Counted from the stretch's first letter, positions 26,539 to 46,205 are shown. The stretch: DNA of 64,000 nucleotides from Alistipes sp. dk3624 (GCF_009557455.1 NZ_CP045651.1:1860001-1924000); one strand, 5' to 3'. The notes: generated by a model not told the origin, from the sequence alone. Translations and numbers: made by a program.

Positions 26539-27603
26539 ATGGAAATAGAACAGAATATCTGGGGTTTTACCGCCGAAGGCGAAGCGATCGTCCTTTACAA
26601 GATGACCAATGCGGGCGGCGCATCCGTGAAGTTGACCAATATCGGCGCGACGGTCGTATCGGTGGAGGTTCCCGACCGGGACGGCCGGCTCGCGAACGTG
26701 GCCCTCGGTTACGACGATTTCAAAAGTTATTTCGGCGACGGGCCGTGCATGGGGAAAACGGTCGGCCGGTTCGCCAACCGGATCCGGGGAGCGAAATTTA
26801 CGTTGGACGGTGTGGAATACCGATTGTCGGCGAACTGCTCCGAAGGGCGGCACCATACGCACGGCGGCGGCATCAACGGCTTTGCGAACAAAATTTGGGA
26901 GAGCCGCGTGGAGACCGACCGGGTCGTTTTCTCGCTGTTCAGTCCCGACGGCGACCAGGGGTATCCGGGCGACCTGAACGCCGAGGTCGTTTACGACTGG
27001 AGCGACGATTGCGAGCTGGAGATTACCTATTACGCCAAGACGACCGCTCCTACTATTATCAACCTTACGAATCACTCCTATTTCAACCTCAAAGGCGAGG
27101 ACCGACCGGGCGCGATGGATCAGTTGCTTCAGATCAACGGATCGAAATACCTGCGTTACGACGCCGACTGCGTCTGTACCGGCGAGCTGGTCGACGTGAA
27201 AGGCACGCCGATGGATTTCAGCGAACCGAAAGCGCTGTCCGCGGAGATCGACGCCGATTACGAACCGCTGCGTTTCGGTTCCGGTTACGACCAGAGCTGG
27301 GCGATCGACGGGTATGAAAAGGGAAAACTTTCCGAAGCGGGCGTGCTGTACGACCCGCAGAGCGGACGGCGGATGCGGATCCGGACGACCCAGCCGTCGA
27401 TCCATATCTATGCCGGAAACTATCTGGAAGGCTGTCCGCAAAGTATCAGCGGCCATCCGTACGGGCGCCGCGCCGGCGTGGCGATCGAGTGCCAGGCCTA
27501 TCCGAACAGTCCGAACTGCCCCGGCTTTCCGTCGACCGTATTGCGTCCCGGGGAGATCTATAACGAGAAAATCGTCTTCCGTTTCGAAACGGATGCGAAT
27601 TAA
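26539..27603 (+). CDS. galM: Aldose 1-epimerase (galactose mutarotase)
   Basis: Interconverts alpha and beta anomers of hexoses. The 354-residue product shows the family segments NRIRGAKFTLDGVEY, HTHGGGINGFANKIW (substrate His), NLTNHSYFNLKG (catalytic His) and AIECQAYPNSPNCPGFPS (catalytic Glu in the IExQ position). No signal peptide is seen, so it acts in the cytoplasm on imported sugar. It lies 36 bp before the MFS permease, matching the mutarotase-permease pairs common in Bacteroidetes. Confidence 0.92.
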   Translation: MEIEQNIWGFTAEGEAIVLYKMTNAGGASVKLTNIGATVVSVEVPDRDGRLANVALGYDDFKSYFGDGPCMGKTVGRFANRIRGAKFTLDGVEYRLSANCSEGRHHTHGGGINGFANKIWESRVETDRVVFSLFSPDGDQGYPGDLNAEVVYDWSDDCELEITYYAKTTAPTIINLTNHSYFNLKGEDRPGAMDQLLQINGSKYLRYDADCVCTGELVDVKGTPMDFSEPKALSAEIDADYEPLRFGSGYDQSWAIDGYEKGKLSEAGVLYDPQSGRRMRIRTTQPSIHIYAGNYLEGCPQSISGHPYGRRAGVAIECQAYPNSPNCPGFPSTVLRPGEIYNEKIVFRFETDAN

Positions 27604-27639: not shown

Positions 27640-28920
27640 ATGGAATCAACTAAACAAAAGAGTTACGCATTGCCGATAGCGATGATGTTCGCGCTCTTCT
27701 TCATGATCGCGTTCGTTACGGGGCTTCAGAACCCGATGGGCATTATCGTGAAGGAACAGTTCCAGGTACCGAACTGGATGTCGCAGTTGGGAAACTTCGC
27801 CAACTTCATCGCTTACGCCTGCATGGGTATTCCGGCGGGTATCATGCTGCAACGCATCGGTTATAAGAAGACGGCTCTTACGGCCATTGTCGTCGGTTTC
27901 GTCGGCGTAGGGATTTCTTTCCTGTCCGGACAGGTCGAAAGTTTTACCGTCTATCTGATCGGCGCTTTCGTATCCGGTTTTTCGATGTGTATGCTGAACG
28001 CCGTGGTAAACCCGATGCTCAATACGCTCGGGGGCGGAGGTAATCGCGGGAACCAGCTGGTGCAGTTCGGCGGTTCGTGCAACTCGATCGGCGCTACGAT
28101 CGTACCGGTGCTGGTCGGCTACCTGATGGGCGACGTATACAGCGCCTCGATCAGCAAGGCCAACCCGGCGCTTTTCCTGGCGATGGGAATTTTCGCGCTG
28201 GCGTTTATCGTACTTTCGTTCGTGAAGATTCCGGAACCGCATCTGGTGACCGCGAAAAAGGAAAAAGAGAAACACAGTCCGTTTTCGTTCCGCCATTTCG
28301 TTCTCGGAACGCTGGCGATTTTCTTTTACGTGGGCGTCGAAGTAGGGATCGCCAACTTTGCGAACCTGTTTATGACGCAGAGCGTCGATAAGGGCGGTCT
28401 CGCTATCGATACGACGGTCGCCGGGACGATCGCCGGAACCTACTGGTTCCTGATGCTGATCGGCCGTTTGACCGGCGCGTCGCTGGGTGCGAAATTTTCC
28501 AGCAAATCCATGCTGACGTTCGTTTCTTCGCTGGGCATCCTGCTGATCCTGCTGGCGATCTTCCTGCCGCTGTCGACGACGGTCAACATGCCGGTGTTCA
28601 AATCCGATATCTCATTCGGTCTGGCTGAAGTGCCGATCGGTATCATGTTGATGATCCTTTGCGGGTTGTGCACCTCGGTGATGTGGGGTAATATTTTCAA
28701 CCTGGCCGTCGAGGGGCTGGGTAAATATACGGCCGCCGCGTCCGGCATTTTCATGGTGATGGTATGCGGCGGTGGTGTTCTGCCGTTGATCCAGGGCGCC
28801 GTTGCAGACGGTTTCGGTTACCTGGCCAGTTTCTGGGTGATTATCGTCGCTCTGGCTTACATCCTGTATTACGCCCAAGTCGGTTCCAAAAACGTGAACA
28901 AGGACATTCCGGTCGAATAA
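27640..28920 (+). CDS. MFS sugar permease, FucP/GluP-like
   Basis: A 426-residue inner-membrane transporter with about 12 hydrophobic segments. The first-half pattern (MFALFFMIAFVTGLQNPM, QLGNFANFIAYACMGIPAG) and VNPMLNTLGGGGNRGNQLVQ fit the fucose/glucose/galactose:H+ symporter branch of the major facilitator superfamily. The transported sugar is unknown. It is the last gene of the nucleotidyltransferase-galM operon and is followed by a terminator. It would take up the monosaccharide released by the neighbouring glycoside hydrolases. Confidence 0.88.
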   Translation: MESTKQKSYALPIAMMFALFFMIAFVTGLQNPMGIIVKEQFQVPNWMSQLGNFANFIAYACMGIPAGIMLQRIGYKKTALTAIVVGFVGVGISFLSGQVESFTVYLIGAFVSGFSMCMLNAVVNPMLNTLGGGGNRGNQLVQFGGSCNSIGATIVPVLVGYLMGDVYSASISKANPALFLAMGIFALAFIVLSFVKIPEPHLVTAKKEKEKHSPFSFRHFVLGTLAIFFYVGVEVGIANFANLFMTQSVDKGGLAIDTTVAGTIAGTYWFLMLIGRLTGASLGAKFSSKSMLTFVSSLGILLILLAIFLPLSTTVNMPVFKSDISFGLAEVPIGIMLMILCGLCTSVMWGNIFNLAVEGLGKYTAAASGIFMVMVCGGGVLPLIQGAVADGFGYLASFWVIIVALAYILYYAQVGSKNVNKDIPVE

Positions 28921-28997: not shown

Positions 28998-30821
28998 ATG
29001 AGAAAATTATTTTTTATAAGTATCGTGGCGGCCGCTCTGGTTTTTTGGTCGGAAAGGTCGTCCGCACAGGCGGTCGAGAGCGACCAGTGGGCCGCGACGG
29101 ACGGTCTCGGCCGCGCTTTGCCCGGGCGGGAACAGACCCGCGCCCGCAGAGACGACCGCAAAGTGGCGATGTTTTACTGGACGTGGCACACCAGTCCGAT
29201 TACCGACTACCGGCGGATCGGCAACATTACGCAGATTCTCCGCGAACATCCCGAGGCGATCGACGATTACGACCACCCCGCCTGGGATATCGGCGGAAAT
29301 TCTTATTTCTGGGACGAGCCGCTGCTGGGGTATTACAAGACGACCGACCCGTGGGTGCTGCGCAAACATGCCGAAATGCTGGCCGATGCCGGTGTGGACG
29401 TCGTGTTTTTCGACTGTACGAACGCTTCCCTTACCTGGAAATCTTCGTACGACGTATTGATCGACGTCTGGACGAAGGCGCAGGGGGACGGCGTGAATGT
29501 GCCGAAGATTGCGTTCATGCTGCCGTTCGGGCCTGTGGATTGGTCGCTCGTTTCGCTGCGCCAGCTTTATGAGGATATTTACAAGCCGGGCCGGGCCGAA
29601 AACCTTTGGTTTTACCTGCACGGCAAACCCTGTATCATGGCTTATCCGGACAACCTGACCGATTCGCCCGAAGACCGGACGATCCGCGATTTTTTCACGT
29701 TCCGTCCCGGTCAACCCGACATCGTGGACGGCCCCGGGCGTCCCGACCAGTGGGGTTGGCTCGAAACCTATCCGCAGCATAAGTTTGTCGAACGTCCGGA
29801 CGGCGGCTGCGAAGAGATGGTGGTCTGCGTGGCGCAAAATGCGAACGATGCCAGCGGCGGCCACTGCTGTGCTTTCAATGCGCCGGGAACTTACGGGCGC
29901 AGTTATACCCAACAGCGCGGGCAGGATACCCGCGAGGATGCTTACCTGTACGGATTGAATATCCAGGAGCAGTGGGATTATGCGCTGCAGTGCGATCCCG
30001 ACCTGATTTTCGTTACCGGCTGGAACGAATTCATCGCCGGGAAGCACATCGGCTGGCATCCCGCCCGCCCCTATTATCCGTTTGCATTCCCCGATCAGTT
30101 CGACTGGGAACGCAGCCGCGATATCGAACCGGTCAAGGCGTGGGGCGATAAGGGCGATGCCTATTACATCCAGTTGGTCGACAATATCCGCCGTTACAAG
30201 GGCGTTTCGGAGTCGCAGGCGGTGTCGCAGCCCCGGAGCTTCCGGATCGGCCGTTTCGACGGTTGGGACGGCGTATCGCCCGATTTCAGGCATTATCCGG
30301 GCAATACGATGCACCGGAATCACAAAGGTCATGCGAACATGTTTTATACCAATACGACCGGGCGCAACGACATCGTGGACGCGAAAGTGGCCCGCGATCG
30401 CAGGTACGTTTATTTTTACGTCGAAACCGCCGATAAGCTGACCCCGTCGACCGACCGCAACTGGATGATGCTGTTCATTGACGTCGACCGTGACAAAGCG
30501 ACCGGATGGGAGGGGTACGATTTCGTGCTGAACTACGAAAAGCCGCAGGACGGCAAATCCGTATTGTCCCGCCATAGCGGCGACGGCTGGAATTGGGAGC
30601 GCGCCGCGGAGGCGGATTATGCCGTCGACGGCAACCGGATGGAGATTCGGATACCGCGTTCGTTGCTCGGTGAGTTCGGAAAGTCGCTGAACATCGAATT
30701 CAAATGGAGCGACAACATGCAGGAAGAGGGGAATATCATGGATTTTTACGTGAACGGCGATGCGGCCCCGGGCGGCCGGTTCAATTTTGTTTACGACGAG
30801 CGTGCCGGGCAGAATCGCTAA
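28998..30821 (+). CDS. Secreted GH71/99-like protein with C-terminal CBM9-like domain (paralogue E)
   Basis: A 607-residue secreted protein: signal peptide to about residue 25 (MRKLFFISIVAAALVFW to SSAQ), then a catalytic-type domain to about 420, then a beta-sandwich domain to the end. The first domain shares FYWTWH, YYKTTDPWVLRKHAEMLADA, DVVFFDCTNA, FFTFRPGQPD and VTGWNEFIAG with four minus-strand paralogues. The WNE motif and overall pattern recall GH99/GH71 enzymes. The last domain (VARDRRYVYFYVETADKL, NWMMLFIDVDRDKATGWEGYDF) resembles CBM9/DOMON folds. It is the most divergent copy and stands apart on the plus strand behind the sugar-permease operon. Activity is unknown. Confidence 0.78.
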   Translation: MRKLFFISIVAAALVFWSERSSAQAVESDQWAATDGLGRALPGREQTRARRDDRKVAMFYWTWHTSPITDYRRIGNITQILREHPEAIDDYDHPAWDIGGNSYFWDEPLLGYYKTTDPWVLRKHAEMLADAGVDVVFFDCTNASLTWKSSYDVLIDVWTKAQGDGVNVPKIAFMLPFGPVDWSLVSLRQLYEDIYKPGRAENLWFYLHGKPCIMAYPDNLTDSPEDRTIRDFFTFRPGQPDIVDGPGRPDQWGWLETYPQHKFVERPDGGCEEMVVCVAQNANDASGGHCCAFNAPGTYGRSYTQQRGQDTREDAYLYGLNIQEQWDYALQCDPDLIFVTGWNEFIAGKHIGWHPARPYYPFAFPDQFDWERSRDIEPVKAWGDKGDAYYIQLVDNIRRYKGVSESQAVSQPRSFRIGRFDGWDGVSPDFRHYPGNTMHRNHKGHANMFYTNTTGRNDIVDAKVARDRRYVYFYVETADKLTPSTDRNWMMLFIDVDRDKATGWEGYDFVLNYEKPQDGKSVLSRHSGDGWNWERAAEADYAVDGNRMEIRIPRSLLGEFGKSLNIEFKWSDNMQEEGNIMDFYVNGDAAPGGRFNFVYDERAGQNR

Positions 30822-30846
30822 CGGTTTTCGTAAAGCGTGTTCCATT

Positions 30847-30883
30847 AAAAAATCGGGTCGGACTTCAGTCCGACCCGGTTTTT
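30847..30883. terminator. Bidirectional terminator between paralogue E and the GH106-like gene
   Basis: Stem CGGGTCGGACT / AGTCCGACCCG with a 2-base loop, flanked by A-rich and T-rich runs on either side. It lies between two convergent genes and can serve both. Confidence 0.85.
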
Positions 30884-30916
30884 AATTCCGGAAACGATTA
30901 TCCGGCAGTGTTCCGT

Positions 30917-33900
30917 CTATTTTTCGTAGGTAACGCTCTCGATAACGACGGGGCCCATCAAACCTGCCTTTTGCAGCGGGGAATCCGCTGTCCACGGGCT
31001 GCACGGCGTCCATGTCGTGCGTTGTGCTTCGGGCAGTTTTTGGTCGCCGATCAGGCGATTCACCCAAGTGTTTACCACTTCGATTTCCAGTTCGTTGTCG
31101 CCTTCTTTGACAAAGTCGGTGATGTCCAGTTCATACGGAGCCGTCCATACGCCGCCGGCATCCTGTCCGTTGACCTTCACGCGGGCCATGGCCACGAAGT
31201 CGTTCAGGTTGATCAGGATGTTCTCGTCGGTCGGGGCTTTGTCCAGTTTGAAGTTGGTCTTATAGGTGGCCGTACCGGAGTAATATTTGATCTTGTCGTC
31301 GGCGTTGGTCGACCAGTCGGTCAGCGATTCGAATACGACCGGTTCTTGCGGGCCGCGTACCTTGTCGGCGAAATCGACCGTCCACGGGCCTTTCAGATCG
31401 GCGATCTGGGCCGGAACCGGGAAGTTGGCTGCCACGTCGGTCGACGAAGCGGCACCCGCTTTGTCCTTGAACACGATGAACATGCTTTCGTACGGAGCCA
31501 TTTCGAGCGGAACGGCCGTAGCGCCCTGTTTCTGCTCGTAAGCGGGCAGTTTGCGTATCACGCCGGTGGTCGGGGCCCACAGTTCGGGCTGCATACCGGT
31601 TACGCGGAATTCCGGCGTAACGACGATCGTTTCGTCGCTCTGGTTGCTTACGAAATAAATTTCGGCATTGTCCAGCGTGCGGTGTCCGTAGTGTACCGGC
31701 GCGCCTTCCGGAATGTTGAGGTCGGGGATGCAGTCGATCGTGGCGAAGGCTTCTTCCATCGTCATGCCGTTTAGGATCATGCCTTTGCCCAGTTTGCGCG
31801 ATTTGACGTTCACGCCGTCCACGTCGCCCCAGATTTCGGCGGCCATCGCTTTCACCTGCTGGTCGGCGGCCGGCTGATTCTGCAGGCTCGGCGAGCGGCT
31901 TGGGGCCGGGCCCATCACGACGGCGCCTTTCTCGATCAGTTCTTTGATCTTGGCCAGCAGTTCCGGACGCATCGTTTCGAGTTTCGGCAGCACCAGGATG
32001 CGGTATTGCGTACCGTGCGGCAACGTGATCTTACCGTCTTTCACGTCCATGTACTTTTCGATCACTTCGGCGTTCATGTAATCGAACTGGTAGCCGGTCG
32101 GAAGGGCCGGGTCGACGATACCGGTCATCTTCGGAGCGTCTTCGCCGATGAAATAGGCTGCGTCGGCTACGTTCAGACCCTGTTGCAGCATGAAGTTCGC
32201 GCGCTTGAGGTACGTGAGGTAGTTGTCGATCTGCGAGAACCAAGTGTTGTGGCGGTTGAATTCGTTGCCGAACCAGGCGTTGACGCCCGGGAGCCGGTCG
32301 TCCGGCTGCGTGATGTAGACGTGCAGCAGCGTGTTGTTGATGCCTTCGGCGAAGAAACGGTCGCCGCGCTGTTTGATCACGCCCGGGTAACGGGCGTACG
32401 AATTGCCGGCGCAGGTGTTCGATTCGGCCGAGATTTTCGTCTTGCCGTAGATATGGCCGCAGGACGAAGCGGCGCGGTTTTCGATGTCGCCCAGTTCGCC
32501 TTCGCTCCAGAACTCGCCGCCGATCTCGTCGGACTGGCCGCCGTACATCAGGAATTCGCCGGGGAAGCCCCAGTGACCGTAGTTTTCGAGCCAGGTATGC
32601 AGCCCGTGTTGATGGCTGACGTCGCGCAGACCGCCCACATAATCATAAGCGACCTTGTCGGCGATCATCCGGCGCACGTCCCACAGGAAACGGTCGGAGG
32701 CCTCTTCGCTGCCCACTACGATGCCGTTGTATACCGGCAAGTAGGGGGTCGGGTCGTAACCGTAGCGGGTCTTGAACTCTTCGATCATGCCGTCCGTGAA
32801 GTTCTGTCCGCCGGTTTCGTAGCTGTCCTGCACCACGACTTTGAACGTCTTGCGGTCTTCGGCCGGGATGCGGCGTAGGATTTCGCCCATGTGAGCATCG
32901 AAATGACTGGCGATGTGTTCGCGGCTCATTTTGTCGGTTTCATAACCGGTCGCTTCGGGCGCGGCGGGAGAATTGGTCGTCCCGGTCGGAGTCATACCCA
33001 TGCGCAGGATTACCCATTCGCCTTCCGGAACATCCCATGTCAGCGTGCCGTCGGCAGCCAGGTATTGCGAGATGTCCTGTACCTTCGCGGGATCTACCAT
33101 CAGCGCGGCGTCTTCCACAGCGGGCTGTACCGGCCATTGATAGTCTTTCCAGTACGGCAGCGGAGTCGGGTGCATCTTCGCCAGCGTCTTTTCGCTGAAG
33201 CGTTCTACGCGCGGAGCGGCTGCCAGAGCCACTTCGGCCAAGCCGCTGCCTGCATTGGCGCCTTTGATGATTACCCGGAAATCGGTTCCGGTCGTGGCCG
33301 GGATCGATACGACCACCGGTGCGAATTGGTCGAATCCGACGTTCAGCGCGGTATTCGTGCGGTTGATGTCGAATTTCGACAGCGTGCGGTAGTTGTCGCC
33401 TTCTTTAACTTGCAACTCGCCTTGTGCGCCCAACGGGTGCTCGGTGGGTTTTACGGTCAGGCTGCGCGCCGTAAACGGAGCGTTGGCTTTCAGGTCGATC
33501 GTAATTTCGCCGCCCTTCGGGATGGCGATTCCGCTTTTCTGGTCGCCGTCGGTGATTTTCGTCAGGTCGGCCACTTTCGGCGTCGAGGTGATCGTCCCGT
33601 TCGACGCGTTCAGCGTGAGCTGGTCGTCTTTCGGCACCGGGTAAGCGATGACGCGTACGTCCTGGAAAGAGTCGGTCGGCTGTACGAGCTTGGCGTTAAA
33701 CTTTTGCGGGCCTTTGGCGCGCGTTTCCGACGAAGCGAGATAACGCATCGCCTGGTCGGCTTTTACCCACGGGCCGCCGGACTGACTCCAGCCCGGAGAG
33801 TTAAAGATTCCGATTTCGATGTCCAGCTCGGTCGCTTTTTTCAGCGCGGCGTGCAGGATGTCCCACCACTCTTCGCTGAGCATTTTCACGTTGCCGTAGG

Positions 33901-34174
33901 GTACGTCGTCCTGGCCGATGTTGCCGATGAACGCGCGGTTGATTCCGGCTTTTTTCATCGACTCGAGGTCTTTGATAACGCCTTCTTTCGAAATGTTGTT
34001 CGAAATCCAATACCAGTAAACGCTGGTTTGGATCGAGTCGGGCGGGGTTACGAATCCCGAAGCGAGCGCTTCGTGGGAAACGTGTTGCGGACCCGACGCC
34101 CCTGTTCCGCAACAGGCGGCCAGCGCGGCTCCTGCCAAAGCGCAGGCGGAAAGTTTAAAAAGATTTTTTTTCAT
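30917..34174 (-). CDS. GH106-like lipoprotein, putative alpha-L-rhamnosidase
   Basis: A 1085-residue product, normal for GH106. The N-terminus MKKNLFKLSACALAGAALAACC is a lipoprotein signal with a LAAC lipobox. The catalytic part begins YWYWISNNISKEGVIKDLES and includes IGIFNSPGWSQSGGPWV, both typical of GH106. A C-terminal jelly-roll domain (LINLNDFVAMARVKVNGQDA, WTAPYELDITDF) recalls sugar-binding domains of GH2/GH106. GH106 enzymes remove terminal L-rhamnose, but the specificity here is inferred. It is the last gene of the operon, 17 bp after paralogue D, so it is likely co-expressed with the GH71/99-like array. Confidence 0.8.
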   Translation of the reverse strand: MKKNLFKLSACALAGAALAACCGTGASGPQHVSHEALASGFVTPPDSIQTSVYWYWISNNISKEGVIKDLESMKKAGINRAFIGNIGQDDVPYGNVKMLSEEWWDILHAALKKATELDIEIGIFNSPGWSQSGGPWVKADQAMRYLASSETRAKGPQKFNAKLVQPTDSFQDVRVIAYPVPKDDQLTLNASNGTITSTPKVADLTKITDGDQKSGIAIPKGGEITIDLKANAPFTARSLTVKPTEHPLGAQGELQVKEGDNYRTLSKFDINRTNTALNVGFDQFAPVVVSIPATTGTDFRVIIKGANAGSGLAEVALAAAPRVERFSEKTLAKMHPTPLPYWKDYQWPVQPAVEDAALMVDPAKVQDISQYLAADGTLTWDVPEGEWVILRMGMTPTGTTNSPAAPEATGYETDKMSREHIASHFDAHMGEILRRIPAEDRKTFKVVVQDSYETGGQNFTDGMIEEFKTRYGYDPTPYLPVYNGIVVGSEEASDRFLWDVRRMIADKVAYDYVGGLRDVSHQHGLHTWLENYGHWGFPGEFLMYGGQSDEIGGEFWSEGELGDIENRAASSCGHIYGKTKISAESNTCAGNSYARYPGVIKQRGDRFFAEGINNTLLHVYITQPDDRLPGVNAWFGNEFNRHNTWFSQIDNYLTYLKRANFMLQQGLNVADAAYFIGEDAPKMTGIVDPALPTGYQFDYMNAEVIEKYMDVKDGKITLPHGTQYRILVLPKLETMRPELLAKIKELIEKGAVVMGPAPSRSPSLQNQPAADQQVKAMAAEIWGDVDGVNVKSRKLGKGMILNGMTMEEAFATIDCIPDLNIPEGAPVHYGHRTLDNAEIYFVSNQSDETIVVTPEFRVTGMQPELWAPTTGVIRKLPAYEQKQGATAVPLEMAPYESMFIVFKDKAGAASSTDVAANFPVPAQIADLKGPWTVDFADKVRGPQEPVVFESLTDWSTNADDKIKYYSGTATYKTNFKLDKAPTDENILINLNDFVAMARVKVNGQDAGGVWTAPYELDITDFVKEGDNELEIEVVNTWVNRLIGDQKLPEAQRTTWTPCSPWTADSPLQKAGLMGPVVIESVTYEK

Positions 34175-34191
34175 AAAATTTTATGGATGAT

Positions 34192-36006
34192 TTATTTCGT
34201 GGTATAAACATAGTTGAACCGTCCTCCGGGCGCGGTGTCTCCGTTGACGTAGAAGTCCATGATGTTGCCGTTTTCCTGCATGTTGTCGTTCCATTTGAAC
34301 TCGATATCGACGTCGTCGCCCGTGAGGTTCATCAGTTGTTTTGCGATAGCCAGTTCGAGCTTGTTGCCGTTGACGGCGAACTTGCTCTCGCCGACGGCTT
34401 CCCATTCCCATCGTCCGCCGACGTTTTTTTCGATCACGGCTTTTTTACCGTGCGGACTCGTGCGATTGACGATGAAATCGTATCCGTTCCATCCGGTCGT
34501 TTTGTCGCGGTCGACGTCGATAAACAGCATCATCCAGTTGCGGTCGGTCGCCGGGGTCAGCTTGTCGGCGGTTTCGACGTAGAAGTAGACGTTGTCGGCG
34601 TCGCGTGCCACTTTCGCTCCGACGATGTCGTTGCGGCCGGTATTGTTGGTGTAGTACTGGTCATACCGTCCGCGGTGGTCGCGGTGCATGGTGTTGCCTT
34701 TGTACGATGCGAAGTAGGGAGCCACGTCGTCCCATCCGTCGGCCTTGCCGATCTTGACCGTCTTGGGGGCCGAAGCTTTTTCAGGAGCGTTCATTCCCTT
34801 GAATTTACGCACGTTGTCGACCAGTTGCAGGTAATATACGTCTCCTTTGTCGCCCCATCCGGCGTTCGGTTCGATATCGCGGCTGCAGTTCCAGTTGTAT
34901 TGGTCGACGAACGAGAACGGGAAGCCGTTCCAACTGTGCTCAGGTAGCCATTGTCCGGCGATGAATTCGTTCCATCCGGTGACGAATACCAGTTCCGGGT
35001 CGAGTTCGAACGCCCGGCTCCACTGTTCTTGGAAGTTATAGCCGTACAGATATCCGTCCACGCGCGGGTCGAATCCTTTCAGTACGCTGAAATTCCGTCC
35101 GTAAGCGTCTTTCACGTTGAAGGCTCCGCAGTGTCCTTTGCGGTCGGGAGAGGTGTTCTGGGCCACGCCGACCGAAACTTGTTCGAACCCGCCGTCGGGC
35201 CCTTTTATGTAGCCGTGCTGCGGATAGATTTCAAGCCAGCTCCACTGGTCTTTGCGCGTCGGGAACGGGCCGTCCACGTAATCGGGCTGTCCGGGCCGGA
35301 ACGTGAAGAAGTCGCGGATCGCCCGGTCTTCGGGCGAATCGGTCAGGTTGTCCGGATAAGCCATGATACAGGGCTTGCCTTTCCACACGAACCACAGGTT
35401 TTCGTAACGCCCCGGTTTGTAAACGTCTTTGTAGAGTTGGCGCAGCGATACCAGCGAGTGCGGAGCCGGGCCGAACGGCAGCATGAAAGCGATCTTCGGC
35501 ACGTTTACGCCGTCCTTTTGCGCCTGATCCCAGGTCTTCATTAACGCTTCGTACGAATCCTCCCAGGTAAGACTGCCGTTCGTGCAATCGAAGAATACGG
35601 CGTCCACGCCTGCGTCGGCCAGCATTTCGGCGTGTTTGCGCAATACCCAGGGGTCGGTCGTTTTGTAGTAACCCAGCAACGGCTGTTCCCAGAAGAAAAA
35701 GCCCGGACGTTTGTCGCCCCACGCCGGATGGTTGTAATCCTTCATCGCTTCGGGGTATTTGCGGACGATTTCGGAGATATTCTTCACCTGATAGGTGGTG
35801 TCGTCATTGCCTTGATGCCATGTCCAGTAGAACATGGCGATGAACTTGTCCTTTTTCTTGTCGCCGGCATCCTTGTATTCGCTGACTTTGCGTCCGAGCG
35901 CGTCGGTCGCCGCCCACGAATCGCTGTTGACAGTTTGTCCGAAAGCGCTTCCGCCGATCAAGCAGACCGTTCCGAGCGCCACAGTAAATTTGGTTAAGAA
36001 TTTCAT
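34192..36006 (-). CDS. Secreted GH71/99-like protein with CBM9-like domain (paralogue D)
   Basis: A 604-residue protein. The signal peptide MKFLTKFTVALGTVCLIGGSAFG ends before QTVNSDSWAATDALG. The catalytic-type domain (about 25-415) has FFWEQPLLGYYKTTDPWVL, AVFFDCTNGSLTW and VFVTGWNEFIAG with Glu347 as candidate catalytic residue. The CBM9-like domain (about 425-604) is encoded by DNA nearly identical to that of paralogues A and C. In GH99 the WNE glutamate is followed three residues on by a second Glu; here that position is Ala (E-F-I-A). The mechanism may therefore differ or the second acid lies elsewhere. It is the fourth gene of the array, 77 bp after paralogue C. Confidence 0.8.
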   Translation of the reverse strand: MKFLTKFTVALGTVCLIGGSAFGQTVNSDSWAATDALGRKVSEYKDAGDKKKDKFIAMFYWTWHQGNDDTTYQVKNISEIVRKYPEAMKDYNHPAWGDKRPGFFFWEQPLLGYYKTTDPWVLRKHAEMLADAGVDAVFFDCTNGSLTWEDSYEALMKTWDQAQKDGVNVPKIAFMLPFGPAPHSLVSLRQLYKDVYKPGRYENLWFVWKGKPCIMAYPDNLTDSPEDRAIRDFFTFRPGQPDYVDGPFPTRKDQWSWLEIYPQHGYIKGPDGGFEQVSVGVAQNTSPDRKGHCGAFNVKDAYGRNFSVLKGFDPRVDGYLYGYNFQEQWSRAFELDPELVFVTGWNEFIAGQWLPEHSWNGFPFSFVDQYNWNCSRDIEPNAGWGDKGDVYYLQLVDNVRKFKGMNAPEKASAPKTVKIGKADGWDDVAPYFASYKGNTMHRDHRGRYDQYYTNNTGRNDIVGAKVARDADNVYFYVETADKLTPATDRNWMMLFIDVDRDKTTGWNGYDFIVNRTSPHGKKAVIEKNVGGRWEWEAVGESKFAVNGNKLELAIAKQLMNLTGDDVDIEFKWNDNMQENGNIMDFYVNGDTAPGGRFNYVYTTK

Positions 36007-36083
36007 TTCTTGTAGGTTTTATTAAAATTAGGTTTTGATGGTGATTGTTTTGTCTGTGTCGATCCTGTATTATCAATGTTTAC

Positions 36084-37904
36084 TTACTTCGGTTTTGTGG
36101 TATAAACATAGTTGAACCGTCCTCCGGGCGCGGTGTCTCCGTTGACGTAGAAGTCCATGATGTTGCCGTTTTCCTGCATGTTGTCGTTCCATTTGAATTC
36201 GATATCGACGTCGTCGCCCGTGAGGTTCATCAGTTGCTTTGCGATAGCCAGTTCGAGCTTGTTGCCGTTGACGGCGAACTTGCTCTCCCCCGCTTTCTCC
36301 CATTCCCATCGTCCGCCGACGTTCTTTTCGATCACGGCTTTTTTTCCGTGCGGACTGGTGCGATTGACGATCAGGTCGTATCCGTTCCATCCGGTCGCTT
36401 TGTTGCGGTCGACGTCGATCAGCAGCATCATCCAGTTGCGGTCGGTCGCCGGGGTCAGTTTGTCGGCGGTTTCGACGTAGAAGTAGACGTTGTCGGCGTC
36501 GCGTGCCACTTTTGCGCCGACGATATCGTTACGGCCGGTGTTGTTCGTGTAGTAGCGGTCGCAATAACCGTAGTGATCCCGGTGCATCGTGTTGCCTTTG
36601 TACGATGCGAAGTAGGGAGCCACGCCGTCCCATCCGTCGGCTTTGCCGATCTTGATCGTTTGGGGCGCTGAAGCCTTTTCGGGCGGAGTCATCCCCTTGA
36701 ATTTTCGGACGTTGTCGACCAACTGTAGGTAATAGGCATCTCCTTTGTCGCCCCAGCTTTTGTTCGGTTCGATATCGCGGCTGTGATTCGAATCGAACAG
36801 ATCGACGAACGAGAACGGGAAGCCGTCCCATCCGTGTTCGGGCAGCCATTGTCCGGCGATGAATTCGTTCCATTCGGTGACGAACACCAGTTCCGGATCG
36901 AGTTCGAAGGCGCGGTTCCACTGCTCCTGGAAATTCCATCCGTACAGGTATCCGTCCACGCGCGGATCGAACCCGTTCAGCATACTGAAGTTCCGCCCAA
37001 ACGTCTCTTTCGTGTTGAATGCGTTGCAATGTCCTTTGAATGCGAACGAAGTGTTTTGGGCCAAACCGACCGAGACCTGCTCGAATCCGCCGTCGGGCCC
37101 TTTTACGTAGCCGTGCTGCGGGTAGATTTCGAGCCAACTCCACTGGTCGTTCCGGTTCGGGAACGGGCCGTTTACGTAGTCGGGCTGCCCGGGGCGGAAT
37201 GTGAAGAAATCGGCGATGGCCCGGTCTTCGGGCGAGTCGGTCAGGTTGTCCGGATAGGCCATGATCAACGGTTTGCCTTTCCAGCGGAACCACAGATTTT
37301 CGTAACGCCCCGGTTTGTAGACGTCGTTGTAAAGTTGCCTGAGCGATACGAGCGAGTTCGGCACGGCTCCGAACGGCAGTAAAAAGGCGATTTTAGGCAC
37401 CTTTACGCCGTCTTTCTGCGCTTGATCCCAGGTTTTCATCAGCGCTTCGTACGAATCCGAATAAGTCAGCGTCCCGTTGGTGCAGTCGCAGAAAACGACG
37501 TCGATTCCGGCGTCGGCCAGCATTTCGGCGTGTTTGCGCAACACCCACGGGTCGGTCGTCTTGTAATATCCGAACAACGGTTCGTCCCAGAAGAAGATGC
37601 CCGGTTTGGAAGTTCCCCAGGCCGGATGGTTGTAATCTTTCATCGCTTCGGGGTGCTGCCGGACGATTTCGGTGATGTTTTTGACTTGCGAGGTCGTGTC
37701 GTTACGACCCATGTGCCAGGTCAGATAGAAGATCCCGACGAACTTGTCTTTTTTCTTGTCGCCGGCATTTTTGTATTCGCGAACTTTGCGTCCGAGCGCG
37801 TCGGTCGCGGCCCACGAATCGCTGTTGACGGCTTGTCCTGCCGCCGCCGTTGCCAGCAGCAGGAGCATTCCGAGCGACAGACCGATTTTGATTGAGGTTT
37901 TCAT
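36084..37904 (-). CDS. Secreted GH71/99-like protein with CBM9-like domain (paralogue C)
   Basis: A 606-residue protein. The signal peptide MKTSIKIGLSLGMLLLLATAAAG ends before QAVNSDSWAATD. The same two-domain layout as its neighbours is seen. Differences in otherwise invariant positions are VFCDCTNG instead of VFFDCTNG and VTEWNEFIAG instead of VTGWNEFIAG. Both lie next to likely active-site residues, so this copy may have altered specificity. It ends in TTKPK, two residues longer than A and D. The 3' 440 bp are close to identical to those of A and D. It lies 27 bp after paralogue B in the operon. Confidence 0.8.
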   Translation of the reverse strand: MKTSIKIGLSLGMLLLLATAAAGQAVNSDSWAATDALGRKVREYKNAGDKKKDKFVGIFYLTWHMGRNDTTSQVKNITEIVRQHPEAMKDYNHPAWGTSKPGIFFWDEPLFGYYKTTDPWVLRKHAEMLADAGIDVVFCDCTNGTLTYSDSYEALMKTWDQAQKDGVKVPKIAFLLPFGAVPNSLVSLRQLYNDVYKPGRYENLWFRWKGKPLIMAYPDNLTDSPEDRAIADFFTFRPGQPDYVNGPFPNRNDQWSWLEIYPQHGYVKGPDGGFEQVSVGLAQNTSFAFKGHCNAFNTKETFGRNFSMLNGFDPRVDGYLYGWNFQEQWNRAFELDPELVFVTEWNEFIAGQWLPEHGWDGFPFSFVDLFDSNHSRDIEPNKSWGDKGDAYYLQLVDNVRKFKGMTPPEKASAPQTIKIGKADGWDGVAPYFASYKGNTMHRDHYGYCDRYYTNNTGRNDIVGAKVARDADNVYFYVETADKLTPATDRNWMMLLIDVDRNKATGWNGYDLIVNRTSPHGKKAVIEKNVGGRWEWEKAGESKFAVNGNKLELAIAKQLMNLTGDDVDIEFKWNDNMQENGNIMDFYVNGDTAPGGRFNYVYTTKPK

Positions 37905-37931
37905 AGGGTCGGGCGTTTTGCGGGCAAAGAT

Positions 37932-39740
37932 TTATTTCGCGGTATATACGTAGTTGAACCGTCCTCCGGGCGCGGTGTCTCCGTTGACGTAGAAGTCCAT
38001 AATATTGCCGTTGTCCTGCATGTTGTCGTTCCATTTGAATTCGATGTCTACCCCGTTTCCGGAGAGTCCCATCAGGGCCTTCGTTACGGCGAATTCGAGA
38101 CTGTTGCCGTTGACGGCGAACCGGCTTTCCCCGGCTTTCTCCCACTCCCAACGGTTCCCGACGTTCTTCTCGATCACGACCAGGCCGTCGTGCGGACTGA
38201 CTCGGTTGACGATCAGGTCGTACCCGTTCCATCCGGTCGCTTTGTCGCGGTCGACGTCGATCAGCAGCATCATCCAGTTGCGGTCGGTCGACGGGGTCAG
38301 TTTGTCGGCTGTTTCGACGTAGAAATAAAGGTTGTCTTTGTCGCGGGCTACTTTCGCTCCGACAATGTCGTTGCGGCCGGTGTTGTTCGTATAGTGCGTG
38401 TCGTCGTGTCCTTTGTGGTTCCGGTGCATCGTATTTCCTTTGTAAGAAGCGAAATAGGGCGCCACGTCGTCCCACTCGCCCGCTTTGCCGATCTCGATCG
38501 TCTTGGGAGCCGAAGCTTTCTCGGGAGGCGTCATGCCTTTGAATTTTCGGACGTTGTCGATCAGTTGCATATAGTATACGTCGCCCTTGTCGCCCCATCC
38601 GGCGTTCGGCTCGATGTCGCGGCTGCAATTCCAGTCGTACTGGTCGGGGAATGCGAACGGTTTATGGGGCTTGCTGGGCGGCCAGTTCTCGTGTTGCCCG
38701 GCAGTGAATTCGTTCCATCCGGTAACAAATACGATCTGCGGGTCGAGTTCGAAAGCGCGGCTCCACTGTTCCTGAAAATTCCATCCGTACAGGTAACCGT
38801 CCACGCGCGGGTCGAATCCTTTTTGCATCGAAAAACTGCGGCCGAAGGCTTTGGGCGCGTTGAACGCGTAAGCATGTCCTCCGTTCTCGGCGGTAGCGTT
38901 TTGCGCGACTCCGACAGTAACCAGTTCGAATTTGCCGTCGGGTCCCTTCACGTAACCGTGCTGCGGATAGTTTTCGAGCCATCCCCACTGGTCGTTGCGG
39001 CTCGGGCCGTCCACGTAGTCGGGTTGTCCGGGCCGGAACGTGAAAAATTCGGCGATTTCACGATCCGAGGGAGTGTCCAACAACGATTCGGGATAAGCCA
39101 TGATACAGGGTTTTCCTTGCCACACGAACCACAGGTTTTCGTAGCGTTTCCGCTTATAAATATCGTTGTATAACTGCCGGATGGATACCTGCGAAGCAGG
39201 AAGCGGGGCGAACGGCAGCATGAAAGCGATTTTCGGCACGTTCACGCCGTCCTTCTGGGCCTGATCCCAGACTTTCATCAGCGCATCGTAGGACGATTTC
39301 CAGGTGTAGGAACCGTTCGTACAGTCGAAAAATACGACGTCGACTCCTGCGTCGGCCAGCATTTCGGCGTGTTTGCGCAGCACCCACGGATCGGTCGTCC
39401 GGTAGTAGCCGAAGAGGGGCTGTTCCCAGAAACAGGTTCCGTGCTTCCAGGCCGGGTGGTTGTAGTCGAAAGCCGCTTCAGGGTATTTCCGGAGCGTTTC
39501 GGTGATATTCTGTACCGGTTTTCCGTCTCCGTCCGCGACGAAGTCGGTATGCCACGTCCAATAGAACATCGCTACGAGTTTGTCTTTTTTCTTGTCGCCG
39601 GCTTCCTTGTATTCGCGCACCTTGCGTCCGAGCGCGTCGGTCGCCGCCCACGAGTCGCTGTTGACGGTTTGCGCCGGCGCGCCGGCCGCCCATAGGCAGC
39701 ATATTCCGAGAAGAAGTCCGAGGCAAGTTAGGTTTTTCAT
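37932..39740 (-). CDS. Secreted GH71/99-like protein with CBM9-like domain (paralogue B)
   Basis: A 602-residue protein starting MKNLTCLGLLLGICCLWAAG, a signal peptide cleaved before QTVNSDSW. The frame stays open upstream into the end of paralogue A, but ATG 39740 gives the signal peptide and aligns with the other copies. It has FWEQPLFGYYRTTDPWVLRK, VVFFDCTNGSYTW and VTGWNEFTAGQ. Its CBM9-like domain is more diverged (DKDNLYFYVETADKLTPSTD, NRVSPHDGLVVIEKN). Only its last ~100 bp match the near-identical tract of A, C and D. It lies 38 bp after paralogue A. Confidence 0.8.
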   Translation of the reverse strand: MKNLTCLGLLLGICCLWAAGAPAQTVNSDSWAATDALGRKVREYKEAGDKKKDKLVAMFYWTWHTDFVADGDGKPVQNITETLRKYPEAAFDYNHPAWKHGTCFWEQPLFGYYRTTDPWVLRKHAEMLADAGVDVVFFDCTNGSYTWKSSYDALMKVWDQAQKDGVNVPKIAFMLPFAPLPASQVSIRQLYNDIYKRKRYENLWFVWQGKPCIMAYPESLLDTPSDREIAEFFTFRPGQPDYVDGPSRNDQWGWLENYPQHGYVKGPDGKFELVTVGVAQNATAENGGHAYAFNAPKAFGRSFSMQKGFDPRVDGYLYGWNFQEQWSRAFELDPQIVFVTGWNEFTAGQHENWPPSKPHKPFAFPDQYDWNCSRDIEPNAGWGDKGDVYYMQLIDNVRKFKGMTPPEKASAPKTIEIGKAGEWDDVAPYFASYKGNTMHRNHKGHDDTHYTNNTGRNDIVGAKVARDKDNLYFYVETADKLTPSTDRNWMMLLIDVDRDKATGWNGYDLIVNRVSPHDGLVVIEKNVGNRWEWEKAGESRFAVNGNSLEFAVTKALMGLSGNGVDIEFKWNDNMQDNGNIMDFYVNGDTAPGGRFNYVYTAK

Positions 39741-39778
39741 GGTTTGTTGGATTTTATTAGGGTTAGATTTTGAATGGG

Positions 39779-41584
39779 TTATTTCGTGGTATAAACATAG
39801 TTGAACCGTCCTCCGGGCGCGGTGTCTCCGTTGACGTAGAAGTCCATGATGTTGCCGTTTTCCTGCATGTTGTCGTTCCATTTGAATTCGATATCGACGT
39901 CGTCGCCCGTGAGGTTCATCAGTTGCTTTGCGATAGCCAGTTCGAGCTTGTTGCCGTTGACGGCGAACTTGCTCTCGCCGACGGCTTCCCATTCCCATCG
40001 TCCGCCGACGTTCTTTTCGATCACGGCTTTTTTTCCGTGCGGACTGGTGCGATTGACGATCAGGTCGTATCCGTTCCATCCGGTCGCTTTGTCGCGGTCG
40101 ACGTCGATCAGCAGCATCATCCAGTTGCGGTCGGTCGCCGGGGTCAGTTTGTCGGCGGTTTCGACGTAGAAGTAGACGTTGTCGGCGTCGCGTGCCACTT
40201 TCGCGCCGACGATGTCGTTGCGGCCCGAATTATTTTCATAAACGTTTCCTCCGTATCCTTTGTGCCGCCGGTGCATCGTATTGCCTTTGTACGATGCGAA
40301 GTAGGGAGCCACGTCGTCCCATCCGTCGGCCCGGCCGATCCGGATCGTTTTTGGGGCGGAAGCTTTTTCCTGCCTGTACATTCCTTTGAATTTTCGGACG
40401 TTGTCGACCAGTTGCAGGTAATATACGTCTCCTTTGTCGCCCCATCCGGCGTTCGGCTCGATATCGCGGCTGCAATTCCAGTCGTACTGATCGGGGAATC
40501 CCATATAATAAGGCCTGTGGGGCGGCCAATCGGCGACCCGGCCGGCGATGTATTCGTTCCATCCGGTGACGAACACCAGTTCCGGGTCGAGCTCAAGCGC
40601 GCGGTTCCACTGCTCCTGGAAATTCCATCCGTACAGATAGCCGTCCACGCGCGGGTCGAATCCTTTCAGCATACTGAAATTCCGCCCGAAAGTTTCCGGC
40701 TCGTTGAAAGAGCAAAAACGGCCTCCGCTGGCGAAACAGGCGTTTTGGGCCACTCCGACGGGCACTTCTTCGTAACCTCCTTCCGGTAGCGGCGCATATC
40801 CGTTCTGCGGGTAGAGCTCCAGCCATCCCCAGTTATCTTTTCGCTGCGGGCCGTTCACATAGTCGGGCTGTCCGGGACGGAAGGTGAAGAAATCGGCGAT
40901 TTCACGGTCTTCAGGCGTATCGCCGAGGTCTTCCGGCCGTGCCATGATGCACGGCTTTCCTTTCCAGACGAACCACAGTTCCCGGTGCCGTCCCGGTTTA
41001 TAGATGTCTTCGTAGAGCATGTGCAACTGCGGGCCGCCGTATTCCGGCGAACCGAACGGCAGCATGAATGCGATCTTCGGGGCTTTGACGCCGTCTTTTA
41101 GCGCTTCGGACCATACCTCCATCAGTACGTCGTAGGATTCTTTCCAGGTCAGTGTCAGGTTCGTACAGTCGAAAAAAACGACGTCGATCCCTGCGTCGGC
41201 CAGCATCTCGGCGTGTTTACGCAACACCCACGGGTCGGTCGTTTTATAGTATCCGAAAAGGGGTTGCTCCCAGTAGTACCGGCCCGGATTATTCCAGGCC
41301 GGATCGTCGAACGAGCGGATCGCTTCCGGGTGTTCGCGGAGTATCTCGGTCGTGTTGTTGACCTGGCTGCCCGGGGGCATGTCGTAGATGTGCCACGTCC
41401 AGTAGAACATGGCGACGAACTTATCTTTTTTGCGTTCCCCGGTTTCCCCGTATTCCCGAACTTTGCGTCCGAGCGCATCGGTCGCCGCCCAGAAATCGCT
41501 GTTTACGGATTGGGCCGCCGTGTTGCCGGCAAGTGCGAGACAGATTCCCGCGCATAGCGTGACACAAAGCAGATAGGTTTTCAT
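39779..41584 (-). CDS. Secreted GH71/99-like protein with CBM9-like domain (paralogue A)
   Basis: A 601-residue protein and first gene of the array. The start at 41584 (MKTYLLCVTLCAGICLALAG) gives a clean signal peptide; an in-frame ATG at 41602 only adds six residues. Catalytic-type motifs are YWEQPLFGYYKTTDPWVL, VVFFDCTNLTLTW and VFVTGWNEYIAGR (Glu344). Like the others it lacks the second GH99 Glu three residues after the first. Its C-terminal tract matches C at some variable sites and D at others. The 180-bp region upstream, towards the regulator gene, should hold the operon promoter; I could not find an exact TAnnTTTG there. Confidence 0.8.
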   Translation of the reverse strand: MKTYLLCVTLCAGICLALAGNTAAQSVNSDFWAATDALGRKVREYGETGERKKDKFVAMFYWTWHIYDMPPGSQVNNTTEILREHPEAIRSFDDPAWNNPGRYYWEQPLFGYYKTTDPWVLRKHAEMLADAGIDVVFFDCTNLTLTWKESYDVLMEVWSEALKDGVKAPKIAFMLPFGSPEYGGPQLHMLYEDIYKPGRHRELWFVWKGKPCIMARPEDLGDTPEDREIADFFTFRPGQPDYVNGPQRKDNWGWLELYPQNGYAPLPEGGYEEVPVGVAQNACFASGGRFCSFNEPETFGRNFSMLKGFDPRVDGYLYGWNFQEQWNRALELDPELVFVTGWNEYIAGRVADWPPHRPYYMGFPDQYDWNCSRDIEPNAGWGDKGDVYYLQLVDNVRKFKGMYRQEKASAPKTIRIGRADGWDDVAPYFASYKGNTMHRRHKGYGGNVYENNSGRNDIVGAKVARDADNVYFYVETADKLTPATDRNWMMLLIDVDRDKATGWNGYDLIVNRTSPHGKKAVIEKNVGGRWEWEAVGESKFAVNGNKLELAIAKQLMNLTGDDVDIEFKWNDNMQENGNIMDFYVNGDTAPGGRFNYVYTTK

Positions 41585-41773: not shown

Positions 41774-44700
41774 TTATTTCGCATGGGATCGTTTGTGCTC
41801 TTCCTTCCATTTCTCTTTGTAGTCTTTCGGACTCACTCCGAAATATTTTTTGAATGCGGTCGAGAAATGGGACTGTGTGCCGAATCCGGTCTGGTCGGAA
41901 ATTTCGGCGATGCTCAGATTTCCTTCGAGGATCAGTTTGGCCGCTTTTTTCATTTTGAAATTCCGTACGTAATCGTTCGGAGCCAGGCCGGTTAGGCTTT
42001 TCATTTTGCGGTAAAAACTGGTTCGGCTGAAACCCAATTCGACGGCGATCACGTTGATGTTGATATCCGGATTTTCGATGCTTTTGTCGATAAACGAATG
42101 CAATTTTTCCATGAAACGTTGGTCGATCTCCGGCAGGTTTCCCGGTATCCGGTCGTTGTCCCCGAAAGGTTCCTCCTGCTCGGCGTGCAGACCTTTGTCG
42201 CTGAAATAGGCTTTCAGCCGGTCCCTGTTGTTCGTTTGGCTGTGGATGACCGAAATCAGGTGGTCGGCGCGGAACGGTTTGTTAATATAGGCGTCGGCGC
42301 CGCAGTTGTATCCTTCGATCCGCTCTTCGATCCGGTTCTTGGCCGTCAGCAGGATGAAAATGGTATGGCTGAGTTGCGGATCGTTTTTAATGGTTTTACA
42401 CAGGGCGATCCCGTCCATTTCGGGCATCCGGATGTCGCTGATGATCATTTCCGGCATCTGTTCCCTGGCCATCTGGACGCCTTCCGTTCCGTTATAGGCG
42501 TGCAGTAGATCGTATTCGATGTGCAGAATTTCGTGCAGCAGCGTGTGAATCTGCGGGTCGTCCTCCACGATCAGTATCGTGCGTCCTTTGGGGGGCGAGG
42601 GCGTTTGAACGACGGGCGTGTCGAAATCCGCTCCGTCGGATTTTGTATTTTCAGGAAGGTTTCCGGGCGTCTGCTGTTCGAAAATTTCGTCGGCCGGGAA
42701 CGCCTCTCTACCGATTGGGATCACGAAACTCATAATCAGACCTTCCGTTTCGGAGAAGACGGCTTTTATCGATCCTTTCTGTCGGCAGACGAGCATTTTG
42801 GTGTAGTGGAGGCCGATGCCGCTTCCCGGAATCTCCTCCGTACTTTCCGTATTTTCCAACCGCCTGAACCGGTCGAAGATGTGTTCCAATTGCTGCGGAT
42901 CGATTGTTTTGCAGGAGTTCACGACTCGAAACTCCAGACATTCGGAACCGGGGGCGTCAAATTCGGGATACCGGTCGACCGCAGTGTTCCGGTCGATTTT
43001 CCGAAAGTCGATCGAAATACGACCTTGCCGGGGAGTGTATTTTACCGCGTTCGAAACGAGGTTGGTCAGTATTTTTTCGAGCACGTCTTCGTCCGTGTAG
43101 ATTTGCAGGGAGTCTTCCGTCAGGTGCAGCGAATAATCGATCTCTTTGGTATGGGCGCTGAAACGGAACGAGCCGGCCACATTCCGGATGAGCGGCACGA
43201 TATCCGTTTGCATGACGTGCAACGGGATCGTTTCGTTACCCATCCGGCTGAAATCCAGCAATTGGTTGACCAGTCGCAGCAGCCGGTTGGAGTTGTAGGA
43301 CAGAGTCGTTATCAGTTTATGCTCGTTGTCTTCGTTCAGCGCGCCATGCGCCAGCAGTTCGATGTTTCCGTTGATCAGGGTCAGCGGAGTCCGTAATTCG
43401 TGGGAGATGTTTCCGTAAAAGTCGATTTTCTGCTGGTTGATCTCCTGTTCGTGGAGTCGCTGTTTTTCGGAGAGGGCGAGCGCTTTTTTATTGTATTTCG
43501 TCCTGAAATACAGCTTGGTGACCGTAATAATGAAGGCCAGAACCAGCAGGATATACAGGGCGTAGGCCCAGCCCGTCAGCCATGGGGAAGCTTTTATCCG
43601 GATATCGATCCCGGTTTCCGGACTCCATTCCCCGTCCCCGTTCTGCACTTTGAGTTTGAACCGGTACTCTCCCGGCGGAACGTTCGCATAAGAGGCCCGC
43701 TTGTTGTTTCCCGCCTCTACCCAGTCTTTATCGAGACCGTCCAGTTTATACGCATAACGAAGTTTGTCCGAGTAATTGTAGTCGATGCCTGCGTAGTCGA
43801 TACTGAATGAATTTTGCCAGTGGTTCAACGTGATCTTCCGCTCGTAAGCGATGCTTTTGCCGATCGGAGCGTGCTTGCCGCCCGGAGTGACGCTCCGGTT
43901 CTGAATCTTAATGTCTTCCAATACGACGGATGGATGGTATCCGTTTTGCTTGACGTCGTTCGGATTGAAACAGTCGGTTCCCAAATTTCCACCGATGTAG
44001 ATCAGCCCGTCGGATGCGGTCAGCATCGCTCGTTCGAAAAACTGGGTGTTGTTCAGTCCGTCGGTTTCGTTGAAATTACGGAACCGTTTCGTTTTGGGAT
44101 CGAACCGTGACAGCCCGTTGGAGGTGGCGAGCCAGATACGTCCGTTTCCGTCTTCGGTCAGGGCCAGGATGTCGTTGCTCGGAAGTCCCTCCGTGTAGGT
44201 GTACTTTGTGATTTTCCGTGTTTTCGGATCGTATTCGAGCAGCCCTTTGTTGTAGCTTCCGATCCATAGGGAGCCGTTTTCGGATCGGCGGATATCGGTA
44301 CATGCGTTCAACGCGTGCATGTTGGCGAACTGACCCTCCGGGATCAACGGTTCCGGTTCGAAATCGCGGTGATCGATCGTGAAAACATTTTGCCCGTAGG
44401 CGGCGTAAACGATCTGATCGGCTTTATAGGGCTGGATCGTGGTGACCGTCACATTTTTTACGACCTGCGAAGGCTCGGCCGTCACATTTTGACCGAAAAA
44501 ATAAAGTCCGGAGAATCCCCCCGCCCAGATATTGCCCGACAGATCCTGTCCGATCGCCGTGATCGGCCCGAAATTTTGCAGCGTCGTAATTTCCGAAAAT
44601 CCGGACGCGTTGAGCTGTCCCACGATCAGGTTACGTCCCGTACTGATCCATATCCTGTTTTGAGAGTCGCAAAACAGGGCCCGTATCGAGTTGTTGCGGA

Positions 44701-45886: not shown

Positions 45887-45923
45887 CGTTGAAGGTTTCG
45901 GCAATTTCATATTCTTGATAGCA

Positions 45924-45931
45924 CAAAAATA
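45924..45931 (-). promoter_or_regulatory. -7 element of the HTCS gene promoter
   Basis: TATTTTTG on the minus strand, an exact TAnnTTTG match. With transcription starting a few bases on, ATG 45886 gets a leader of about 30 nt whereas ATG 45910 would get about 7 nt. The -33 element is not evident. Confidence 0.5.
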
Positions 45932-46205
45932 ATCATTCTTTGATAATTTTTTCGTTTTTGTTTCAAAAAACATTTTATCCTTTTATATATTATTGTTAAT
46001 AAGAGTTTTATGGATTATGCTTTTGACCAGAATTTAAATGAATATAGCCCGCATGGGTACAAGAATGAACAGTTTTTGAAAAAAATTGAAACAAATGAGT
46101 CTATTATTAGCTAATATTTGTAGAATTTCGTGCTATCGGAATTTTCTATAAAAATACGCGGGGAAAATTTGGTAAAACAAGAAAATTAAACCTAAATTTT
46201 TATCT

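Follow-up and report, generated by a model that had tools for sequence, protein, structure and literature searches.

Glycoside hydrolases (GHs) of family GH99 work by a retaining 1,2-anhydro route and those of GH71 by an inverting route. The catalytic pair is E-x-x-E in the retaining GH99 enzymes and D-x-x-E in the inverting GH71 enzymes (PMC12394665). Unassigned branches are already known in the GH71/GH99-like superfamily, and CDD model cd11575 has been cited for one of them (PMC13421300). We analyzed five paralogous genes, P0001 to P0004 and P0006, in a 64,000-nucleotide stretch of the closed, 3.02-Mb chromosome of Alistipes sp. dk3624 (GCF_009557455.1, NZ_CP045651.1:1860001-1924000; the whole stretch is called the window here). 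The best explanation, to which we give a probability of roughly 0.58, is that the five proteins are exported GHs, that they belong to an uncharacterized family in the GH71/GH99 superfamily, and that they work in a polysaccharide utilization locus (PUL) of the SusCD type with a hybrid two-component system (HTCS). The family is probably an uncharacterized GH family with divergent catalytic heads on a homogenized tail. It is not categorically new, because the superfamily already contains unassigned branches; what is new is that the whole branch has lost the second acid, that the family is linked to rhamnosidases, and that a mosaic of heads and tails occurs repeatedly.

An original prediction, made from the sequence alone, described five paralogues, four in tandem on the minus strand and one on the plus strand, sharing a signal peptide, a catalytic-type domain, and a C-terminal beta-sandwich. 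This description held. All five are full-length open reading frames (ORFs) that are homologous end to end (mean column identity, 80%; P0001 versus the other four, 60 to 61%), and each combines a predicted signal peptide, a barrel, and the C-terminal sandwich. An AlphaFold2 (AF2) model of P0004 (mean pLDDT, 93.1; pTM, 0.93) was built from an alignment of 72 family sequences (A2), which was also used for profile searches and residue counts. Its 40 best Foldseek matches in the PDB were all GH71 AnGH71C or GH99 enzymes (11 to 14% identity; best match, 9fnf), and its secondary structure, with beta1 at residues 56 to 61 and alpha1 at 118 to 131, leaves a long beta1-alpha1 loop of ∼55 residues, as in GH99. 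A profile search of PDB sequences matched BxGH99 (4ad1) at an E value of 2.8e-7, with printed residue numbers that agree with the published numbering. A global hhalign comparison with two GH99 sequences indicated homology (E value, 1.9e-14) with an untrustworthy middle region, and E272 was not placed from it. The C-terminal domain matched CBM9 structure 7nwo in Foldseek (probability, 0.99; E value, 2.2e-3), and Pfam CBM9_1 matched 1 of the 72 members, weakly (E value, 0.0021). Together, the model, Foldseek, and the profile search support a GH71/GH99-type barrel followed by a CBM9-like sandwich, as had been proposed. In the viral structure library BFVD, the best match of P0004 was M1HHB3, an unnamed viral protein (22% identity over 379 columns), with an E value better than that of any PDB entry.

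The best Pfam match was GH99 (PF16317), below its gathering score of 33 bits: the best of the five proteins reached 26.4 bits, and 20 of the 72 members matched, with a best E value of 9.4e-7, judged by which none of the 72 reaches the gathering score. GH71 (PF03659) gave no match among the five or in the tally of 72 members, and WbsX (PF14307) matched a single one of the 72 below its gathering score (E value, 0.005). NCBIfam held no model for the family, and a single-sequence phmmer search of the PDB matched nothing relevant. Judged by Pfam, NCBIfam, the PDB, and the literature, with GH195 compared by description only, the family is uncharacterized. The prediction of an uncharacterized GH family thus stands in that these resources do not place it, while enzyme activity is something we still infer. 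Besides GH99 and GH71, there is another characterized relative, GH195 (PMC13063451), which qualifies the original prediction.

All five proteins keep the WNE glutamate and carry alanine three residues on, as noticed earlier. In the profile alignment, E344 falls on Glu333 of BxGH99 and A347 on Glu336 (BxGH99 string, FNEWHEG), which bears out the earlier statement that GH99 enzymes have a second Glu at this spacing. At the Glu336-equivalent position, 70 of the 72 relatives have Ala, one has Gly, one has Val, and none has Glu; the family motif is E-x-x-A, and both the GH99 and the GH71 dyads are unmatched. Trp126 and Glu156 of BxGH99 are likewise not kept, aligning to Thr141 and Pro/Asn176. Invariant in all 72 sequences are D36, D134, D139, T141, N142, R236, E272, N343, E344, F363, D365, R373, and D386. 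Because other acids (D139, E272, D365, and others) are invariant, a different, putative catalytic pair is likely in this family. In the AF2 secondary structure, D139-T141-N142 come after strand beta2, R236 after beta5, and E344 after the last strand of the barrel; since they stand just after barrel strands, these residues would lie on the side where such enzymes hold their active site. E272, near the start of its own strand, may be structural. As a guess, the partner acid of E344 would be D139 first, at the end of strand beta2, and then D365 or E272.

The absence of the second GH99/GH71 acid in 72 of 72 relatives would also suit glycan-binding or scaffolding proteins that descend from GH99-like enzymes and do not catalyze, the conserved cleft serving only for binding. 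The CBM9-like C-terminal domain fits such a role, and Robb et al. 2017 (cited in PMC13063451) reportedly solved, going by their title, a marine GH99-related protein without catalytic machinery. However, E344, D139, N142, R236, D365, and E272 never vary among sequences of 33 to 75% identity, five separate heads are maintained beside a GH106 gene, and the marine precedent is titled as lacking the machinery altogether, whereas this family always keeps the first Glu. We regard a purely binding role as unlikely.

The two parts of the genes have different histories. The catalytic domains (heads) of P0002, P0003, and P0004 are 69 to 83% identical versus 93 to 94% for their C-terminal domains (tails), and the tandem copies share identical DNA runs of up to 191 bp. 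In the catalytic-domain tree, P0001 grouped with L022 and L031, a type also kept by two other Alistipes species; P0002 grouped with L018, L019, and L020 of other Alistipes species; and P0004 grouped with L032, L042, and copy 2 of L063. The four tandem copies were not a clade in this tree: constraining them to be one cost 241 log-likelihood units and was rejected, and the same constraint cost 198 units in a larger catalytic-domain tree (P = 3e-6). A single recent amplification of whole genes was ruled out by the catalytic-domain tree. In the C-domain tree, by contrast, the four tandem copies formed one clade (100/97), and orthologous groupings of P0002 (P = 2e-4) and P0004 (P = 8e-4) were rejected.

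At least two further arrays show this mosaic. L019, L042, and L032, from the sister species, were joined by the C domain (100/97) and not by the catalytic domain, and in a second array of the source genome, L009 and L010 have tails with 98% identity on heads with 65%; the mosaic is weaker in L063. The simplest cause is gene conversion, or head replacement, between neighboring copies. At least three catalytic-domain types are common to several species, and head positions with at least three residue types among the five proteins were modestly enriched in cleft-side loops with hand-set limits (odds ratio, 1.9; P = 0.024). These two results lend indirect support to the suggestion that specificities are subdivided among the copies.

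None of the five signal peptides has a lipobox, and among 98 close family members, 82 have a hydrophobic leader without the motif; the GH106 enzyme of the locus carries one. As a rule, the GHs that Bacteroidota display at their surface are lipoproteins. Because of this and of their lipobox-free signal peptides, the five proteins probably work on imported fragments within the periplasm. They were described as secreted; "exported" is the fitting word, with the periplasm as the likely destination; depolymerization at the outer surface is unlikely.

Seventeen matches to the family occur in the source genome. Five are those described here, five form a second tandem array (2960880-2970329), and the rest are at five other places. 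Two GH43 genes lie near the second array (L125 and L126). The family was found in 14 of 101 relative genomes and, in a phylum-wide scan, in at least 1 other genome of 295, a lower bound with four candidates scored per genome. A genome collection yielded 319 stretches encoding a relative; the 80 kept for comparison were nearly all from Bacteroidota, with one from Kiritimatiellota.

For the neighbor analysis, the ORFs of 81 loci were clustered and the main clusters were named by Pfam. In 39 of the 81 loci, a rhamnosidase (GH106 or GH78 type) lay within ∼10 kb; contig ends truncate many of the loci. GH106 was present in 24 loci, in 17 of them ≤1 kb from a family gene; other neighbors were DUF5722 (21 loci), a six-hairpin rhamnosidase-like cluster (20), GH78 (14), GH20 (8), GH130 (8), GH127 (7), and, beside a sugar kinase, L-rhamnose isomerase (3). 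Across the 101 genomes, GH106 occurred in 13 of the 14 that have the family and in 23 of the 87 that lack it (Fisher P = 3e-6); for DUF5722, the counts were 6 of 14 and 3 of 87 (P = 1.6e-4). Both P values ignore kinship. The source genome itself encodes L-rhamnose isomerase and several GH106 enzymes. Because rhamnosidases and L-rhamnose isomerase are linked to the family, our best guess for the substrate is a rhamnose-containing glycan.

These neighborhoods bear on two other assignments. One paralogue locus also contains GH92, which, like the position of GH99 as best Pfam match, would fit ordinary GH99-type endo-alpha-mannosidases or mannanases with a shifted acid, acting on alpha-mannan. All members nevertheless fall under the GH99 gathering score, the BxGH99 residues Trp126 and Glu156 are replaced, and the main neighbors are rhamnosidases, not GH92 or GH76; we consider this highly improbable. 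Alternatively, the five could belong to a characterized GH99-related family, such as GH195, a distant GH99 relative from Bacteroidota (PMC13063451), or to another described CAZy family, in which case the substrate would be known. Characterized GH195 loci carry sulfatases and GH92 (PMC13063451), whereas no sulfatase was among the annotated recurrent neighbor clusters of the family loci and rhamnosidases were frequent; this evidence, indirect and with no sequence compared, makes membership in a characterized family quite improbable to us.

Several neighbors drew attention of their own. DUF5722, for which NCBIfam has no model, as for several neighbor clusters, has invariant HNEVD and SEN motifs (example at L127:6214-8463; 118213-120462 in the source genome). 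Its AlphaFold model (pLDDT, 83) had GH2, GH1, and GH10 enzymes as best PDB matches, and on these grounds it resembles a glycoside hydrolase of clan GH-A that has not been described. Large recurrent neighbors with no or weak Pfam/NCBIfam matches were L063:3-2894 (cluster c9, 7 loci), L057:987-2975, and L085:15-2003.

The features of the locus are listed in Table 1. The minus-strand family genes are separated by 77, 27, and 38 bp, and P0004-P0006-P0003-P0002-GH106 reads as an operon, to which the predicted GH106-like enzyme, confirmed by Pfam, belongs. This group lies downstream of a 1,399-aa HTCS, and two SusC/SusD pairs diverge from it. On the plus strand, the genes for a nucleotidyltransferase, an epimerase, a permease, and P0001 (gaps of 22, 36, and 77 bp) form an apparently operon-like second run, of which P0001 is the last gene. 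SusC, SusD, HTCS, and exported GHs together identify the locus as a SusCD/HTCS PUL; this frame is ordinary, and the enzymes are unusual. From the nucleotidyltransferase gene to the GDPD-family gene, there is no GH besides these, in agreement with the reported lack of a canonical endo-acting GH. That the five proteins and GH106 are the whole depolymerizing machinery cannot be shown, since further family copies and other rhamnosidases occur elsewhere in the genome.

Table 1. Predicted features of the PUL, with positions in the window
Feature	Position	Strand	Basis or remark
NTP_transferase-family sugar nucleotidyltransferase-like protein	25602..26516	+	Pfam PF00483
Aldose 1-epimerase, GalM-like	26539..27603	+	PF01263 / NF008277
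MFS sugar permease, GluP/FucP/NagP-like	27640..28920	+	PF07690; TIGR01272 under cut-off
Family copy 5, P0001, 607 aa	28998..30821	+	Own catalytic-domain type
GH106 alpha-L-rhamnosidase, lipobox present	30917..34174	-	PF17132, 763 bits, above gathering score; PDB relatives 6q2f, 5mqm/5mqn, 5mwk
Family copy 1, P0002, 604 aa	34192..36006	-	Ends 17 bp upstream of GH106
Family copy 2, P0003, 606 aa	36084..37904	-	Translation, alignment, trees
Family copy 3, P0006, 602 aa	37932..39740	-	Translation, alignment, trees
Family copy 4, P0004, 601 aa, possible GTG start at 41602	39779..41584	-	AlphaFold2 model
C-terminal CBM9-like domain of P0002 (approximate)	34195..34785	-	Homogenized among tandem copies
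C-terminal domain of P0003 (approximate)	36087..36683	-	Shares identical DNA of up to 191 bp with P0004
C-terminal domain of P0006 (approximate)	37935..38525	-	Domain identities, C-domain tree
C-terminal domain of P0004 (approximate)	39782..40372	-	AF2 model, Foldseek, C-domain tree
HTCS sensor-regulator	41774..45973	-	Reg_prop, Y_Y_Y, HisKA, HATPase, Response_reg, HTH_18
SusC-like importer 1	46206..49481	+	TIGR04056
SusD-like lipoprotein 1	49500..51449	+	PF07980
SusC-like importer 2	51476..54649	+	TIGR04056
SusD-like lipoprotein 2	54687..56522	+	PF07980

A GDPD-family phosphodiesterase with a signal peptide (56652-57419) lies directly 3' of the second SusD. A long antisense ORF on the minus strand (29007-30845) covers P0001, with similar ORFs in L104, L109, L112, and L125; such ORFs can mask family genes in automatic gene picking. 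Neighbor cluster c21_754 is an artefact of this kind, and family copies are therefore slightly under-counted in the neighbor-cluster tallies.

In the mechanism we propose, the two SusCD pairs would bring in fragments of a rhamnose-containing glycan; in the periplasm, the five enzymes would cut internal or branch linkages, probably alpha, while GH106 would take off L-rhamnose. One catalytic residue would be E344, which corresponds to Glu333 of GH99 and Asp265 of GH71, with the partner acid supplied from elsewhere in the barrel. The catalytic heads would be old paralogues with different cleft loops, and gene conversion among neighboring copies would keep the C-terminal domain uniform. Because the cleft loops differ, the heads probably differ in linkage or decoration preference. 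The full combination, a new GH family in which another acid replaces the E-x-x-E/D-x-x-E dyad and variable heads on a repeatedly homogenized tail attack a rhamnose-containing glycan, is put forward tentatively.

Several points weigh against assigning the five proteins to an enzyme family of this kind. Activity is known for no family member, and the marine protein said to lack catalytic machinery is a precedent for its loss. Global superposition on GH99/GH71 was poor (Foldseek TM-score to target, 0.40 to 0.57; rmsd, 7 to 18 Å), probably because loops differ and two domains were aligned to one. The placement of D139, E272, or D365 facing E344 is a guess. As for the substrate, rhamnosidase linkage is no proof that it contains rhamnose, the co-occurrence test ignores the relatedness of the genomes, and the epimerase and GluP/FucP-like permease near copy 5 would fit another sugar.

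If the proteins are enzymes, a large GH71/GH99 branch hydrolyzes after losing one of two catalytic acids, which would be a third mechanism beside those of GH99 and GH71. To our knowledge, few enzymes are known for internal linkages of rhamnose-containing glycans, and the family could be a missing tool for them. The recurring mosaic suggests that gut bacteria can hold several specificities in one locus with one common module, and with these natural sets of heads on one tail, specificity can be tested directly.

Each of the known systems resembles the family in part. GH195, an endo C6-sulfate alpha-1,3-mannanase, is likewise a distant GH99 relative in a Bacteroidota PUL; its loci, compared by description only, differ in their sulfatases and GH92 (PMC13063451). 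PmGH99 of Prevotella melaninogenica (cd11575, GH99_GH71_like_3) is also a Bacteroidota PUL enzyme of the GH71/99 superfamily with unassigned function, but it is a single-domain barrel that keeps a DYGE motif and has low activity on Streptococcus mutans biofilm (PMC13421300). The GH71 alpha-1,3-glucanase AnGH71C (PDB 9fnf) shares the order of barrel and C-terminal beta-sandwich, a likeness and not proof of membership; GH71 has a DxxE dyad and no ∼50-residue beta1-alpha1 loop (PMC12394665), whereas the family has E-x-x-A, a long loop, and 12% identity to it. By Foldseek, CBM9 (7nwo) resembles the C-terminal domain in fold; in sequence, a single one of the 72 members matches Pfam CBM9_1, weakly. 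With the GH99 endo-alpha-1,2-mannosidases/mannanases (BxGH99, BtGH99, and human MANEA), the family shares the barrel, the long beta1-alpha1 loop, the first catalytic Glu in WNE/FNE, and local profile similarity; it differs from them in its second position, which is mostly Ala and never Glu, in scoring under the Pfam cut-off at 12 to 14% identity, and in its extra C-terminal sandwich.

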